Below the pieces are notes generated by a model. It saw only the letters and a program-made list of their open reading frames with translations, made no database searches and was not told where the DNA came from. Positions 8,411-19,368 of a stretch of DNA of 21,612 bases are shown here, in pieces. The translations under genes and the position numbers were made by a program. This DNA is from an uncultured Synergistales bacterium (GTDB lineage Bacteria > Synergistota > Synergistia > Synergistales > Aminobacteriaceae): NCBI GenBank assembly GCA_937957815.1, contig CALFXN010000162.1:1-21612 (forward strand), in the 5' to 3' direction. Positions within the stretch are counted from its first letter, which is position 1, and each line of letters starts with the position of its first letter.

Positions 8411-8659
8411 TTGAAATTTTACGATATAGATGAACTGTCGAGGAAGATAGGTATCAACAACAAGTATATGTTGACCACGCTGGTTTCCGGCCGTGCGAGG
8501 GCGATCAGCGAACAGAAGGGGAGAATTCTCGAGGAAGAAGAGAAATACATCTCCGTCGTTCTGGACGAACTCGATGCGAAGCGGCTTTCCATCGCTTCCG
8601 CATTGCCGGGATCGCCCGTTGCGGCAGAGGAGAAATCCGATGCTTCCGTGGAAGAATAA
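8411..8659 (+). CDS. rpoZ: RNA polymerase omega subunit
   Basis: A small omega subunit that helps assemble the beta-prime subunit and, in many bacteria, contributes to a ppGpp site. The core reads YDIDELSRKIGINNKYMLTT followed by LVSGRARAISEQ, matching the omega pattern of a short helix, then N/S-KY-x-L-x(n)-RAR. An acidic, low-complexity tail follows. From TTG 8411 the product is 82 residues. From ATG 8387 it would be 90, adding MTTREVNR. The TTG is preferred because of the GGAGGTGA site five bases upstream; this is a judgement, not proof. The position directly after gmk is conserved across many phyla. It overlaps coaBC by 20 bases. Confidence 0.88.
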   Translation: MKFYDIDELSRKIGINNKYMLTTLVSGRARAISEQKGRILEEEEKYISVVLDELDAKRLSIASALPGSPVAAEEKSDASVEE

Positions 8660-9863
8660 CAGACGGGTCCTTCTCGGAGTCTCCGGGGGAATCGCCGCGT
8701 ACAAGGCTGCCGAGATCGTTCGTCTCTTGCGGCATCATTGTTGCGATGTCGAGGTCGTTCTGACCGAGGACGCGGAGAGGTTCGTCTCACCGCTGACCCT
8801 CTCGACGCTTTCCGGCAGACGGACGTGGCGCCAGCAGGATTACCTGTCTTCCGATTATGGGTATCAGATCCCACACATCTTGCTTGCCGACTGGGCGGAG
8901 GTCGTCGTGACGGCTCCCGCGACTGCGAACACGATTGCGGGACTTGCTCAGGGGACGGCGCGGTCGCTTCTCGAATCGGTCATTCTTGCGACACGGGCTC
9001 CGGTCCTGATTTTCCCAGCGATGAACGTCCATATGCTTGAGAACGCCGCGACGCAGGACAATATCGGGGAACTGAGGCGACGAGGCATCCGCGTTGCGGA
9101 ACCGGCGGAGGGGGCTCTTGCCTGCGGGTACGAAGGCAAGGGACGACTCCCCTCTCCCGAAGTCATTCTTCAGGAAATCTGGCGACTCCTCTGTCCGAAG
9201 AAGGACCTTTCCTCATGTCGTGTTCTGGTGACTTCGGGTCCGACGTGGGAGTTTCTCGATCCGGTCCGGTTCATAGGGAACCCGAGTTCGGGCAAAATGG
9301 GGCGCGCCGTGGCGCGGACCGCGTGGTACAGAGGAGGCGACGTTACGATCGTCGAAGGCCCCGTATCTCTCGAAGCTCCGTATGGCATCGAACGCGTTCC
9401 GGTCATCTCCGCGCTCGATATGTACGAAGCGGTCTTGTCGAGAGCGGGGGAAAATGACGTCATTGTCAAAGCCGCGGCTGTCGGCGACTTTCGTCCCGAG
9501 ACCCGCGAGGAAGGAAAGGTCAAACGAGAGGGCAGGGACCGCCTGACGATTTCGCTCGTGCAGAACCCGGATATCGCAAGAGAGCTCGGCGTCAGAAAGC
9601 GAAAGGACCAGATCCTCGTCGGATTCGCCGCCGAATCATCCGATCTGATCGTTCACGCTTCGGAAAAGATCCGGCGAAAGGGACTCGATTTTATCGTCGC
9701 GAACGATATCACCGCTGAAGGAGCCGGCTTCGGGGCGGATACGAACCGCGTTGTCTTCCTTTTCCCGGATGGAACGTCCAGACGGGTCGAAGGCGCCAAG
9801 GAAGATGTCGCCGACGTGCTGTGGGATCTCGTTTCTTCGCTGCGCTGTGGAACGGGGAACTGA
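8640..9863 (+). CDS. coaBC: Bifunctional phosphopantothenoylcysteine synthetase/decarboxylase
   Basis: A 407-residue fusion enzyme of coenzyme A synthesis. The N-terminal CoaC half decarboxylates phosphopantothenoylcysteine using FMN: GVSGGIAAYK (13-22), catalytic H79 in IPHILLADWAE, APATANTIAGLAQG (92-105), PAMN (126-129) and C162 in ALACGYEGKGRLP. The C-terminal CoaB half joins cysteine to 4'-phosphopantothenate using CTP: VTSGPTWEFLDPVRFIGNPSSGKMG (197-221), KAAAVGDFRP (277-286) and ANDI (354-357). Both active sites look intact and the length is standard. The start ATG 8640 has AGAGGAG eight bases upstream. A longer frame from 8493 overlaps rpoZ and is not family-like. coaD at 19874 supplies another step of the same pathway. 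Confidence 0.96.
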   Translation: MLPWKNNRRVLLGVSGGIAAYKAAEIVRLLRHHCCDVEVVLTEDAERFVSPLTLSTLSGRRTWRQQDYLSSDYGYQIPHILLADWAEVVVTAPATANTIAGLAQGTARSLLESVILATRAPVLIFPAMNVHMLENAATQDNIGELRRRGIRVAEPAEGALACGYEGKGRLPSPEVILQEIWRLLCPKKDLSSCRVLVTSGPTWEFLDPVRFIGNPSSGKMGRAVARTAWYRGGDVTIVEGPVSLEAPYGIERVPVISALDMYEAVLSRAGENDVIVKAAAVGDFRPETREEGKVKREGRDRLTISLVQNPDIARELGVRKRKDQILVGFAAESSDLIVHASEKIRRKGLDFIVANDITAEGAGFGADTNRVVFLFPDGTSRRVEGAKEDVADVLWDLVSSLRCGTGN

Positions 9864-9866
9864 TGA

Positions 9867-11669
9867 GTGTTTCCTCTTGTCGATGTCGTCGTTCCCGGTC
9901 CATGGTGGAACTGCCTCACCTATCGTTGCGTGGAGGAAGAACTCTCTGAAGGGTGTCGCGTGCGGGTTCCTCTCGGAAGGGGAACCCGCACCGCCTTTGT
10001 GACGCGCTCCGGTTCAGGCGAGAACCCCGTTGCCGTTTCGGCCCTGCGAAACGTTATGGAAGTCCTTGATCGTCATCCCGTTTTCCCTCCTACTTTGTGG
10101 CATCTCAGCGGCTGGATCGGCGAAACCTGTCTCTGCGGCAGGGGAATGGCGCTCGGAGACATGTTGCCCCCCGATATTCTCAGCGGAGCGCCATGTGAGG
10201 CATTTCCTTTTCCCCGAATCTCCGAACGAGAGTGCCCTGCGGATACTCTCGTGTACCGGAATCGCGACGCGCAGCGGTTTGAGGAATACGAACGGCTGAT
10301 CCGGGAGACAAAAGGTTCGTCGCTCGTTCTCTTCCCGGAATATGGAATGGCACGGCGTTTTTTCGATTCCCTGACGGAAAAAAGCGACGTCCTCCTCTGG
10401 CCCGGGCAGGGAGGAAAGAGACTTCGGGCTGCCTGGGATGCGACACGCCGCGGCATTCCCCGTGTCGTCGTGAGCGCTCCGGGAGGATGCTATGCCCCCT
10501 TGCCGCAGATCGACCTTGTCGTTCTCGAAGAGGAAAACGCGGCCTCCTACGATTCTCAGAAATATCCGTATATGAACTACAGGATGATTGCCGCGCGCAG
10601 GGCGCGGGAACATTACGCTCACCTCGTCCTTGGCGGAAGGATGCCGTCCTCGCGCGTGTTTCGCCGCTATGCGCCGGTTTCGGGCGATCGTCCGGGAAGC
10701 AGACTGATCCTTGTACGGAAAAGTGACGTCAGAAAGAAAACCGCGGTTGGGGTCGAAGGACAGATTCCGATAGGACAGGCCATTCTGAGGACGACGGAGA
10801 AAACGTTGCGGCAGTCGCGCGTTGCCCTGTGGATTCTTGACCGTGTCGGCTACGCGATCGGCATACGTTGCGACGACTGTGAAAAAGAAGTCACCTGCGG
10901 GCGATGCGGAGGTACGCTCCGATGGAAACAGGGAGAAACGTTTGCGGTATGCACGCGGTGCAATACGCATTCTCCAGTTCCGGAGAGATGCCCCGTCTGT
11001 GGCGGTTTTATTCTGAAGGGAGATCGTCCCGGAATCGAAACGCTCTGTCGGACAGCCGCGAGGTGTGCGGGAGACGGCCGTGTCGTCGAATGCAACGCCG
11101 GGGATTTCTCCGTGGCCCGGAAAAGAAAGGACATTGAAAGACACATGTCCGGCGGCGGTATTTTGCTCGGAACCAGAGGCATACTTCCGTTCTGTGACAT
11201 CCTTCCGGTTGGTCTGGTCTGCTGGATCGATCCCGAGGTGGAATTGGGATTCGCCCGATATTTTGGTTCCGTACTCCTTTTTTCCATGATCTGGGAGTCC
11301 TGCTGGAGAGGGAATGACGTCGAAAAACGGAGAGTCCTTGTCCAGACGTCCGATATGGGTGCACGGTGGATCAAAGGCCTCCGGCAAGGGTGGAATCTGT
11401 TCTGGAGTGAGGAAATACGTGAACGGAGGGAGATGGCCTTGCCTCCTTACACGCTTCAGTTCGAGATCGAGGCGTCCAGGGAGATCCGGAAGGATCTGCT
11501 CGAATCCCTGACACAGGCGAACATTGATGTGATACCATGGAGCGACGGGAACGAACGCGCCATTGTCGTCGGCGGGAGCCTGCGGGTAATGGTACGGGCG
11601 ATGGAGAAACACTTTTCGATCAGGGCTTCCGGAATGGGTTTTCCCCGAATTCGCGTTCGAATGGAATAA
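9867..11669 (+). CDS. priA: PriA-like primosomal protein N' lacking helicase motifs
   Basis: A 600-residue PriA homologue, short for a family usually over 700. PriA binds stalled forks and starts replisome reloading. The N-terminal DNA-binding domain is recognisable (GCRVRVPLGRGTRTAFV, residues 29-45). The zinc domain is complete, with paired cysteines C335/C338, C344/C347, C362/C365 and C375/C378 after DRVGYA, and the late MALPPYTLQF (523-532) corresponds to the usual LGYPPF block. The ATPase motifs are gone. Where GVTGSGKTEVY belongs the protein has RNRDAQRFEEY (131-141). DEEH reads EEEN (221-224), GSATPS reads GGRMPS (256-261), and the GTQMxxKG and AGRAGR motifs read GTRGILPF (435-442) and SCWRGND (478-484). 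It should be helicase-dead. The start is GTG 9867, three bases after coaBC, after GGGGAA. Confidence 0.9.
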   Translation: MFPLVDVVVPGPWWNCLTYRCVEEELSEGCRVRVPLGRGTRTAFVTRSGSGENPVAVSALRNVMEVLDRHPVFPPTLWHLSGWIGETCLCGRGMALGDMLPPDILSGAPCEAFPFPRISERECPADTLVYRNRDAQRFEEYERLIRETKGSSLVLFPEYGMARRFFDSLTEKSDVLLWPGQGGKRLRAAWDATRRGIPRVVVSAPGGCYAPLPQIDLVVLEEENAASYDSQKYPYMNYRMIAARRAREHYAHLVLGGRMPSSRVFRRYAPVSGDRPGSRLILVRKSDVRKKTAVGVEGQIPIGQAILRTTEKTLRQSRVALWILDRVGYAIGIRCDDCEKEVTCGRCGGTLRWKQGETFAVCTRCNTHSPVPERCPVCGGFILKGDRPGIETLCRTAARCAGDGRVVECNAGDFSVARKRKDIERHMSGGGILLGTRGILPFCDILPVGLVCWIDPEVELGFARYFGSVLLFSMIWESCWRGNDVEKRRVLVQTSDMGARWIKGLRQGWNLFWSEEIRERREMALPPYTLQFEIEASREIRKDLLESLTQANIDVIPWSDGNERAIVVGGSLRVMVRAMEKHFSIRASGMGFPRIRVRME

Positions 11670-11695
11670 TTGAAGCTCCAGGGAAGGAAGATAGC

Positions 11696-13024
11696 GTGTT
11701 CGTCGTATCTATCGTCGGAAGACCGAACGTTGGAAAATCCTCGTTGTTCAATCGCCTTGTAGGTCGCAAAGAGGCCATTGTCGACGACTGTCCCGGAGTG
11801 ACCCGGGATAGGCTGTATGGCGTTGCCACGTGGAAGGAACGGAGCTTTTACGTCGTCGATACCGGCGGGTACCTTTCGGAGGATTCCCATCCCGTGATGG
11901 AGGGAGTCCGGAAACAGATCCGCCTTGCGATAGCCGAGAGCGACATCGTTCTTCTCGTGATCGACGGCATTGAAGGACCGACTCTTCTGGATCAGGACGT
12001 CGCGGATGTTCTGCGACAATCGGGAAAACAGGTTCTCGTTGTTGTCAACAAGATCGACGATTTCAAGCACGAGAATGACGTTCTCGACGGGTATTCGCTC
12101 GGATTCGGCGATGTGATCGGCGTGAGCGCCGAACATAAGCGGAATATCGACGAACTTCTCGACGGTATCGCGGGATTGCTTCCCGCAGAAGAAGAGACGC
12201 CTGCAGAAGATGGGGAAAATGCTGAAATCCGAGTCGCGCTCGTCGGACGACCGAATGTCGGGAAGTCGAGTCTCCTGAATGTTCTGGCCGGCCAGGAGCG
12301 ATCCATCGTGAGCGATAAACCCGGAACTACGAGGGATGCCGTCGATACGACGTTCGAGTCCGAAGGGTGCGTTTTCCGACTCATCGACACCGCGGGACTC
12401 AGACGTAAAAGTCGTGTCAGGGAGGATATCGAGTATTATTCGTTCCTCCGGACCATGCAGGCCATTGACAGATCCGATGTTGCGCTGCTCGTGATGGACG
12501 CGACCGAACCGGCGACAGATCAGGATAAAAAGCTCGCATCCCTGGTCCTCGAAAAGGGGAAGGGGCTTGTAATCCTTCTGAACAAATGGGACCTTCTCGG
12601 GAGGAAAGATAACGATCTCGGCGATCGTATGAAGGAACTCGTACGCGACGGGATGGTTTTTGCAAAACACGCACCTGTAGTCTTTGTGTCGGCACTGACG
12701 AAGCGAGGGCTTCACAAGATATTCAGGGTGATTCTTTCAGTATTTGAAAACAGAAAACGGCGCATCAGTACGAATACGCTCAACAGAATCATTCGTGACC
12801 TGCTCGCTTTTGACAGACTTCCGTCGGACAGGAACGGAAGGCGTCTTAATATCTATTATTGTACACAATCAGCCGTTGAACCTCCTACTTTTGTCTTCTT
12901 TGTCAACAACGCGACTCTCGTAACACCGGCCTTTGAAAACCACATTGAGAACGAGCTTCGGGAGATTGCCGATTTTCAGGGGGCCCCGATACGATTTTTC
13001 TGGAGGGAAAAGGCTCGGGAGTGA
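11696..13024 (+). CDS. der: Ribosome biogenesis GTPase Der (EngA)
   Basis: A 442-residue double-GTPase acting in late assembly of the 50S ribosomal subunit. The first G domain has GRPNVGKS (8-15), DTGG (55-58) and NKID (118-121). An acidic linker (about 164-177) leads to the second, with GRPNVGKS (184-191), DTAG near 231 and NKWD near 300. The C-terminal KH-like domain ends with YYCTQSAVEPPTFVFFVN and the FQGAPIRFFWRE tail, both characteristic of Der. The GTG at 11696 gives the canonical N-terminus MFVVSIVGRPNVGKS and has GGGAAGGAAG just upstream. An ATG at 11537 in the same frame is inside priA and would add unrelated sequence. It is the last gene of the packed operon. Confidence 0.95.
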   Translation: MFVVSIVGRPNVGKSSLFNRLVGRKEAIVDDCPGVTRDRLYGVATWKERSFYVVDTGGYLSEDSHPVMEGVRKQIRLAIAESDIVLLVIDGIEGPTLLDQDVADVLRQSGKQVLVVVNKIDDFKHENDVLDGYSLGFGDVIGVSAEHKRNIDELLDGIAGLLPAEEETPAEDGENAEIRVALVGRPNVGKSSLLNVLAGQERSIVSDKPGTTRDAVDTTFESEGCVFRLIDTAGLRRKSRVREDIEYYSFLRTMQAIDRSDVALLVMDATEPATDQDKKLASLVLEKGKGLVILLNKWDLLGRKDNDLGDRMKELVRDGMVFAKHAPVVFVSALTKRGLHKIFRVILSVFENRKRRISTNTLNRIIRDLLAFDRLPSDRNGRRLNIYYCTQSAVEPPTFVFFVNNATLVTPAFENHIENELREIADFQGAPIRFFWREKARE

Positions 13025-18197: not shown

Positions 18198-18303
18198 GTG
18201 GTAGCACTCCGACGATATGTAATAATGGATTTTGTATAATCATCATTTCGTGAAAAAAAAGCTTAGCCTAACGGTAAAGCCTGAAGACATCTTAGCACAA
18301 GTG

Positions 18304-18320
18304 CAATTCGTGTCAATTCG
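18304..18320 (+). repeat. Direct repeat CAATTCG, one helical turn apart, at the trmB promoter
   Basis: CAATTCG occurs at 18304-18310 and again at 18314-18320, so the start-to-start distance is 10 bases. The second copy occupies the -35 region of the TATAAT at 18339-18344. This geometry suits binding of an activator on one DNA face, but no regulator is identified. Confidence 0.45.
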
Positions 18321-18338
18321 GACGTACCGGCGTTACGC

Positions 18339-18344
18339 TATAAT
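18339..18344 (+). promoter_or_regulatory. Probable -10 element for trmB-rsmD-coaD
   Basis: A perfect TATAAT lies 46 bases before the trmB ATG. The -35 region (around 18316-18322) does not match TTGACA well. Another TATAAT on the same strand at 18235-18240 has no -35 partner either. The 233-base region 18158-18390 between nifJ and trmB otherwise contains only the repeats listed and no gene. Confidence 0.55.
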
Positions 18345-18390
18345 AACGCAGCGAAAAAGCGTCGGCGGTTCGAACGGAGGACAGCGTATT

Positions 18391-19368
18391 ATGAGAACAT
18401 TGAAAGAGATCGTTGTTCGGCCTGCGGGAAGAAAGCTCCCCCTGTTTCCGCAGGACGCGTCCAGTATATTTGTGGAGCTTGGATTTGGGAATGGCGAGTT
18501 TACCGAGCATCTTGCCCGCGAACATTCTGAATCGCTTGTCTTTGGAATTGAGGTCTCCAGAAGTTGCGTTCTGAAAGCGGCGCTTCGGGCGTCACGGCAT
18601 TCGATTGCCAATATGTATCTCCTGTGTGGAGATGCGCGCTTTCTGATGCGGGAGTGCTTTCCGGACGACAGCATCAGCATGGTGTATATGAATTTCCCCT
18701 GCCCGTGGCCGAAAATGCGTCACGAAAAAAGACGGCTTACCGGGACCGGTTTTTCTCAGGATCTGGCCTCGGTTCTGAAGCTGGATGGAACCTACGAACT
18801 GACGACCGACGTGAAATCGTTCGCGGAAGAAATGGCGGAGTACCTCGCCCGCTCCGCGTCACTTGTTGTTGATGTGCGACGACGTGCCGAGGCGAGGTCG
18901 TTCACGACGAAATACGAAAGGAAATGGCTTGCGCTTGGACGGCCGATTTTTCTTCTGAGCGCCAGAAAGGTTGCCGGAGCCTCGACGCGGAGAATTTCTC
19001 TTGAGGAGGATTACAGAATGCATGCTCGTTTTCGAGGACAGCTTCCCTGTCTTGCGGAGTGGAAGAAGTTCAACGGACAGGGTGGAACGCTTCAGGATGG
19101 ATTCTGGGTCTACAGGGACGCATATCGCTCTGAAGACGGCATGATTCTTCTCGAAACAATCGCGACCGATCAGGGATTCGAGCAGAAATACCGTCTTCGT
19201 ATCTTTTCCGAAGAAGGGCGGGGAATCGTGAAAATCGATCCGTATTCCTTCCCGTTTATAACGCCTTCGGTCAGGATGTCCGTTGAAAATATTGCTGCCC
19301 GTCTGGACTGTATCGCTGAAGGAGAATCCGGGATGCGAAGGGTGTCGGAGGACGGAGAGAATCGATGA
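18391..19368 (+). CDS. trmB: tRNA (guanine46-N7)-methyltransferase, long form
   Basis: TrmB methylates N7 of G46 in tRNA variable loops using S-adenosylmethionine. The 325-residue product has the SAM-binding FVELGFGNGEFTEHLA (27-42), the family motif as NFPCPWPKMRHEKRRL (101-116) and TTKYERKWLALGRPI (172-186). The motif normally reads FPDPWPK; here residue 104 is cysteine (codon TGC), an odd substitution next to the tRNA and substrate site. About 130 residues follow the usual C-terminus; long forms are known in Aquifex, where the extension aids function. The ATG at 18391 follows GGAGG with ten bases spacing. A frame open from 18232 crosses the promoter region and is not used. The stop overlaps rsmD. 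Confidence 0.9.
   Translation: MRTLKEIVVRPAGRKLPLFPQDASSIFVELGFGNGEFTEHLAREHSESLVFGIEVSRSCVLKAALRASRHSIANMYLLCGDARFLMRECFPDDSISMVYMNFPCPWPKMRHEKRRLTGTGFSQDLASVLKLDGTYELTTDVKSFAEEMAEYLARSASLVVDVRRRAEARSFTTKYERKWLALGRPIFLLSARKVAGASTRRISLEEDYRMHARFRGQLPCLAEWKKFNGQGGTLQDGFWVYRDAYRSEDGMILLETIATDQGFEQKYRLRIFSEEGRGIVKIDPYSFPFITPSVRMSVENIAARLDCIAEGESGMRRVSEDGENR

Follow-up and report, generated by a model that had tools for sequence, protein, structure and literature searches.

A PriA orthologue lacking the ATPase site and winged helix in Synergistota, a likely pseudohelicase platform for replication restart

The window considered here, a 21,612-nucleotide stretch of DNA from an uncultured Synergistales bacterium (contig CALFXN010000162.1), harbors an ordinary chromosomal orthologue of priA, the gene for the replication restart protein PriA. 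Its product has lost the residues of the ATPase site and the winged-helix domain and carries newly conserved residues, while the predicted fold retains the other PriA domains. It is considered likely that this chromosomal PriA, very probably the sole copy, became a pseudohelicase early in the phylum and acts as a platform which hands DnaB to forks without unwinding them. A heavily remodeled PriA from a further phylum is thereby added to the pseudohelicase known from Deinococcus and to the divergent form of actinobacteria; literature searches, for which subscription papers were mostly outside reach, returned no published study on Synergistota PriA.

Loss of the ATP site and winged helix in the window PriA

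Alignment to Escherichia coli PriA confirmed the motif replacements that an earlier note, made from the letters of this DNA alone, had read as RNRDAQRF, EEEN, GGRMPS and altered GTQ and AGRAGR motifs. Walker A (GVTGSGKT) aligns without gaps to RNRDAQRF, with K230 opposite R137; DEEH of motif II (D320 to H323) is aligned to EEEN (221 to 224), GSATP of motif III (G355 to P359) to GGRMP (256 to 260) and GTQ of motif V (G538 to Q540) to GTR (435 to 437), and QVAGRAGR of motif VI is replaced by ESCWRG-N, Q580 to R584 being aligned to ESCWR (477 to 481). The residues which are gone comprise the Walker A glycines, lysine and threonine, the DEEH histidine, the GTQ glutamine, and the glutamine and second arginine of motif VI, whereas PE of motif Ia, the acidic residues of motif II, R and G of motif IV, GT of motif V and one motif VI arginine column are kept. 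The statement that all helicase motifs had been lost thus stands for the nucleotide-contacting set, but not for motifs Ia, II, IV, V and VI, parts of which survive. All of the active-enzyme signatures applied, namely Walker A GxxxxGK[ST], DE[EQ]H, QxxGRxGR and the winged helix, are failed by the window PriA. The winged-helix stretch of E. coli PriA has no counterpart in the alignment, a feature absent from the earlier note, and all eight zinc cysteines (335 to 378) match those of the E. coli cysteine-rich region (CRR), in keeping with the intact zinc domain which that note had described.

The sole Pfam match above cut-off is PF17764, the 3'-DNA-binding domain (3'BD; residues 6 to 101, 59.3 bits versus 22.7), which upholds the proposed PriA homology through the N-terminal DNA-binding domain. 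NCBIfam PriA models match residues 145 to 600 far under their cut-offs (TIGR00595, 129 versus 230.35 bits), and solved E. coli and Klebsiella PriA chains align to residues of about 3 to 115 and 149 to 537 (E values of 3e-34 to 5e-33). An AlphaFold model of the protein (predicted local distance difference test, 90.8) presents the PriA fold minus the winged helix, with two RecA-like lobes and a C-terminal domain (CTD) in PriA order, model residues 3 to 600 superposing on PriA residues 2 to 730. The best VIA-align Z score, 29.8, was obtained with 6dcr, an engineered E. coli PriA from which the winged helix was deleted; as judged by its entry title, 6dcr shares this absence with the window protein but is otherwise E. 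coli PriA with an intact ATP site. The 3'BD, both RecA-like lobes, CRR and CTD are common to the window PriA and the canonical proteins of E. coli, Klebsiella and Bacillus (8fak, 4nl4 and 6dcr), from which it differs by the missing ATP site and winged helix and by the replacement of Asp17.

Conservation and remodeling across Synergistota

A survey of the phylum, based on a search centred on an Acetomicrobium metagenome-assembled genome (MAG) which is itself a member, yielded 168 PriA frames from 167 of 185 Synergistota genomes, the genome of the window lying outside this set. Insertions are invisible in the added survey rows, which were placed onto an alignment of constant columns. The remaining 18 genomes comprise 14 with no 3'BD match (no fragment check was made) and four which were matched but unread. 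PF17764 matched 169 of the 185 genomes, at a single place in each with the exception of G102, in which two were present; G029 and G157, in which a contig end truncates priA, gave no 3'BD match but were still read. The two G102 copies (L072 and L073), each following coaBC on a separate contig, may represent a duplication or a mixed bin, and both score below the TIGR00595 helicase cut-off.

No Walker A loop was found in any of the 164 frames which reach the site, and the Lys230 column holds R in 163 of the 168 frames, Q in one and a gap in four. The winged-helix domain was likewise absent from the surveyed frames (columns of E. coli residues 112 to 200 filled at no more than 2/88), each Cys column reads C in 164 to 165 frames and is otherwise gapped, and in motif II acidic residues occupy the DEE columns in 166, 164 and 167 of 167 sequences, respectively, E322 being matched by E in 166. 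Since the same changes recur phylum-wide, the motif changes of the window PriA are not due to chance. Neither of the two observations which the earlier note had named as telling against it, a second complete PriA and a Walker A loop elsewhere in the protein (0/164 readable frames), was made: TIGR00595 detected no helicase-competent PriA in the 185 genomes of these relatives, its cut-off being passed in four (G007, G003, G005 and G004), in each case by this same gene, and narrowly missed in G006. The PriA of all five genomes lacks both the P-loop and the winged helix. Among the database matches listed, a true Walker A was present in none of P0001 to P0076 (some of them partial), which also lack PF00270 and PF00271, but in 43 of 44 (P0077 to P0120) and 117 of 120 (P0121 to P0240); the four Walker A-less proteins of the latter two sets are P0116 (542 amino acids, no PF17764), P0121 and P0122 (basal Synergistota) and P0152, an unplaced metagenome protein.

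The gene is not simply decaying, as the earlier note had also held, its frame being open, its locus conserved and its divergence biased toward third codon positions, at which differences between the window and its relative L001 are 2.3 to 2.7 times as frequent as at the other two (505 codons). An alignment of 73 sequences contains 26 invariant columns, including R137, E223, R437, W453, E459, E477, S478, R481 and G482. When 163 core Synergistota frames were compared with 160 canonical PriA sequences, 28 fixed columns were found to be kept and 50 canonical-fixed columns to be released. In six columns both sets are at least 90% fixed, each to a residue of its own; five of these (K230R, V252F, T258A, S356G and V581S) fall in the motif windows, which were set by the analyst and cover 84 of 732 E. 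coli positions, and the sixth, G592R, falls outside them. A further 11 columns, W453, D455 and E459 included, are at least 90% fixed in Synergistota and less than 60% in canonical PriA. Since former motif positions are now occupied by new residues with full or almost full conservation (R137, S478, W453 and E459), the gene has been retooled. Core PriA proteins are 27 to 38% identical to the window protein (basal forms, 22 to 25%), compared with 38 to 58% for CoaBC and 48 to 62% for Der; the neighbors YicC and RsmA are also low in identity, and fast change is consequently not unique to PriA.

Intermediate PriA forms occur in the five basal genomes G003 to G007. Pfam-recognizable Cys and C-terminal domains (PF18319 and PF18074) persist in P0121, which is the PriA of G007, and in the related P0122, and the six basal sequences examined keep the motif IV Asn and carry Gln (four) or Val (two) in motif V, the Lys230 column being Arg in all six. 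In the tree, the 13 core rows are united in a single long-stemmed clade (100/100), and the basal forms are successive branches with modest support (88/94 and 87/83). This topology fits an early loss in the phylum followed by further remodeling, the order of losses being uncertain because of the long branches. Six Microbacterium-type rows group with canonical PriA, Synergistota and P0152 being placed on the other side. A single origin shared with the actinobacterial form was thus not recovered, yet a single clade was not rejected (approximately unbiased test, P = 0.31) and the branches that come together are long; separate motif losses in Synergistota and actinobacteria are therefore plausible, short of proof. 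P0152, a metagenome protein of 617 amino acids without Walker A and winged helix in which the PriA CTD is kept, perhaps represents another loss.

Possible function and competing explanations

A structure-specific loading platform is the best reading of this protein. Abandoned forks would be bound through the 3'BD, the two lobes, the CRR and the CTD, with lagging-strand single-stranded DNA (ssDNA) being held by PriA, and the lobes, which are presumably not driven by ATP, would probably be fixed by new contacts among R137, E223, R437, W453, E459 and ESxWRG. DnaB would then be handed to the fork, probably together with DciA, without unwinding; restart would for this reason be confined to forks at which lagging-strand ssDNA is exposed, or at which the arm was first opened by another helicase or a nuclease. 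Of loader-type partners, DciA was found, with matches in 159 of 183 genomes (150 over cut-off), and Synergistetes are listed in one report among the phyla with dciA inside or beside a replication operon (PMC5109545). DnaT and DnaB_2 were each found in 0/61 genomes, and PriC in 0/61 over cut-off, with two weak matches. The single-stranded DNA-binding protein (SSB) ends in IPF (17), VPF (2) or LPF (1) in all 20 genomes read out of 21, the tail tips being mostly preceded by an acidic stretch.

Several observations weigh against this reading. Asp17 is described as crucial to 3'-end recognition by E. coli PriA, and Arg697 of Klebsiella PriA as binding the SSB tail (PMC4129139). The Asp17 column holds Thr in 122 and Ser in 34 of the 165 readable Synergistota frames; the presumed Arg697 counterpart, taken by our own offset as E. 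coli Arg698, falls in a mostly hydrophobic column (Leu 74, Phe 22 and Val 14 being the commonest residues); and the winged helix is absent alongside. As all three features are changed, the fork-reading and SSB-docking rules of E. coli may not apply here, and a description as PriA minus its helicase understates the change. Furthermore, the R437, E477 and R481 columns are not fixed beyond the 73-sequence alignment: that of Q540 (R437) is R in 131/164 frames and Q in 15, that of Q580 (E477) is E in 137/163 and D in 11, and that of R584 (R481) is R in 141/163, the neighboring R587 column being mixed (R in 42). There are also the 14 genomes which have neither a 3'BD match nor a read gene, and the four unread ones, and the E. 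coli route uses PriB and DnaT, the latter having no match in the 61 genomes searched. The earlier interpretation is accordingly retained in so far as this PriA orthologue has no ATPase site and is kept phylum-wide, and is to be widened by the changes to the winged helix, Asp17 and the Arg697 counterpart; with Asp17 and the winged helix also gone, the loading-platform reading falls short of proof. Provisional residue numbers for the SSB-tail pocket (82, 86, 370, 697 and 701) were mismatched to the letters of E. coli PriA, and the comparison was therefore confined to the published Asp17 and Arg697.

A bolder version, tentative and on balance doubtful, is that the dead ATP site has become a new working site whose residues (R137, E223, R437, W453, E459 and ESxWRG) lock the lobes or dock DciA-DnaB, with no 3'-OH pocket or winged helix being used in fork recognition. 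In that case a whole phylum would restart replication with no ATPase activity of PriA and with a fork reader of different build, a state arrived at via intermediates that survive in basal lineages. The protein is unlikely to be a nucleotide sensor instead, one in which R137 and the acidic motif II hold ATP or ADP, unhydrolyzed, so as to set the lobes. The Arg at the Lys230 column in 163 of 164 frames and the acidic DEE columns speak for such a sensor, but Walker A columns G224, T226, S228, G229 and T231 are released, a helix of the model begins at residue 134, inside the former P-loop, and K230R is described as abolishing the ATPase of E. coli PriA (PMC4504706). Slightly less probable still is a new job as a DNA-binding scaffold outside replication restart, for which the changed 3'-end and SSB-tail residues, the lost winged helix, the newly conserved residues and an identity to the window protein below that of CoaBC and Der could be adduced, though YicC and RsmA are low as well; PriA nevertheless occupies a single place in 168 of 169 matched genomes, at the ordinary priA locus, SSB tails and DciA are kept, and no other PriA was found in the 185 genomes.

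It is highly improbable that the protein still works as a helicase by way of an unconventional ATP site at some other place: no point was found in its favor, and the P-loop pattern occurs in just 2/168 frames, off-site in both, once upstream of the first domain and once as the motif III segment GRMPSGKT, the latter match recurring in P0034 and P0050. Least credible of all is a decaying pseudogene or assembly error, which is already contradicted by the third-position bias, newly conserved residues, conserved locus and open frame (about 560 amino acids or more in most genomes listed), despite a mean HD1 identity of 34% within the Synergistota group versus 49% among canonical PriA and cut or disrupted frames in a few genomes (e.g., G118 and G061).

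Known PriA types and genomic context

PriA from Deinococcus radiodurans, which the earlier note had cited as a pseudohelicase, is indeed a demonstrated one; in the same source, which covers 100 PriA proteins from 18 phyla, the helicase motifs are said to be well conserved, with Deinococcus-Thermus as notable exceptions (PMC4504706). The likeness to Synergistota PriA lies in the degenerate Walker A and B motifs and the Walker A Lys-to-Arg exchange; no clear priB or dnaT is noted there for D. radiodurans, and dciA is reported in Thermus-Deinococcus (PMC5109545). The Deinococcus protein, compared here by description only, is said to make "poor matches" to motifs I and II (PMC4504706), whereas Synergistota PriA is devoid of the entire Walker box and of the winged helix and has newly conserved blocks. 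The graded intermediates and the fixed Lys-to-Arg exchange of Synergistota allow a comparative test of what the PriA motor is for; such a comparison could show which forks are restarted without a motor and whether motor loss tracks DciA-type loading. These natural, compact and presumably ATP-independent PriA proteins may also be usable for structural work.

Actinobacterial PriA is flagged by UniProt as being without helicase domains. Among the 120 actinobacterial matches listed, proteins are about 640 to 660 amino acids long (with one partial exception), and lack PF00270 and PF00271, "Probable replication restart protein P.." being a UniRef label found among them; in one source actinobacterial PriA is called "smaller and very divergent" (PMC1193525). 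The one aligned Microbacterium sequence resembles the window PriA in lacking Walker A and the winged helix but has Gly in the Lys230 column, PF27106 is present in nearly all of the 120 matches listed, and against the actinobacterial PRK14873 models the window PriA reaches 74.6 bits at best (NF011453) versus 812, the cut-offs being above 800. Among the matches listed, actinobacterial PriA occurs on plasmid records of Microbacterium only; in one of these, a 465-kb plasmid record (L064:1249-3171), priA shows an apparent frame exit in the cysteine region and is annotated as one coding sequence. PriA matches overall were present on 74 to 80 plasmid-filed records (Pseudomonas, Vibrio, Salmonella and others), several of which are chromosome-sized and others apparent plasmids with a gene annotated as priA.

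The window gene, free of internal stops, opens with a GTG codon 3 bases past the end of the coaBC frame, and the next gene downstream is der (Table 1). Its nearest relatives are P0001 (99% identity), P0002 (63%) and the locus L001 of a Synergistaceae MAG (62%); the latter two, together with the neighboring genes, assign the window to Synergistota.

Table 1. Features of the priA locus in the window
Feature	Position	Strand	Basis
priA orthologue, pseudohelicase (ATPase site lost), 600 amino acids	9867..11669	+	ORF (open reading frame), Pfam, NCBIfam, alignment, fold, locus
coaBC, upstream neighbor	8493..9863	+	ORF, gene order
der, downstream neighbor	11537..13024	+	Mechanical ORF bounds; true start probably 3' of priA
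3'-DNA-binding domain, residues 6-101; Thr18 at E. coli Asp17 column	9882..10169	+	Pfam PF17764, alignment
Site of missing winged-helix domain, residues about 106-122	10182..10232	+	
Former Walker A (motif I) RNRDAQRF, residues 131-138; R137 = Lys230 column	10257..10280	+	Alignments
Former motif II EEEN, residues 221-224; E223 nearly invariant	10527..10538	+	Alignments
Former motif III GGRMPS, residues 256-261	10632..10649	+	Alignments
Cysteine-rich region: Cys 335, 338, 344, 347, 362, 365, 375, 378	10869..11000	+	Alignments
Former motif V GTR (435-437) replacing GTQ	11169..11177	+	Alignments
Newly conserved WIDPEVE (453-459)	11223..11243	+	W453 99%, E459 94% of core Synergistota
Newly conserved ESCWRG (477-482) replacing motif VI QVAGRAGR	11295..11312	+	Alignments
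C-terminal PPY (526-528), common to canonical PriA	11442..11450	+	Alignments

The conserved place after coaBC, which the earlier note had pointed out, was found in the window and in 18 of 21 regions, priA opening the contig in the remaining three, and the coaBC-priA order is shared with Bacillus velezensis. Downstream, der lies within the region in 14 of the 21; in the two regions of G102 and in G081, G061, G146 and G157 it was not recognized after priA, while the contig of G007 stops shortly past priA. The order coaBC-priA-der is also present in the divergent basal genomes G003 to G006. In G134 (L078) about 1.7 kb separates priA from der, genes which are close together in most regions holding both. 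Four Synergistota PriA proteins (P0018, P0024, P0035 and P0043) are named "prephenate dehydrogenase" at NCBI, an apparent misannotation. Named by ORF reading, the genes of the window are scpA, scpB, cmk, hflX, gmk, coaBC, der, HU, rsmA, trmB and coaD in addition to priA. At 378 amino acids, the TrmB-like frame (18232 to 19368, + strand) is longer than is usual for a tRNA (guanine-N7) methyltransferase and has additional sequence at the C terminus.
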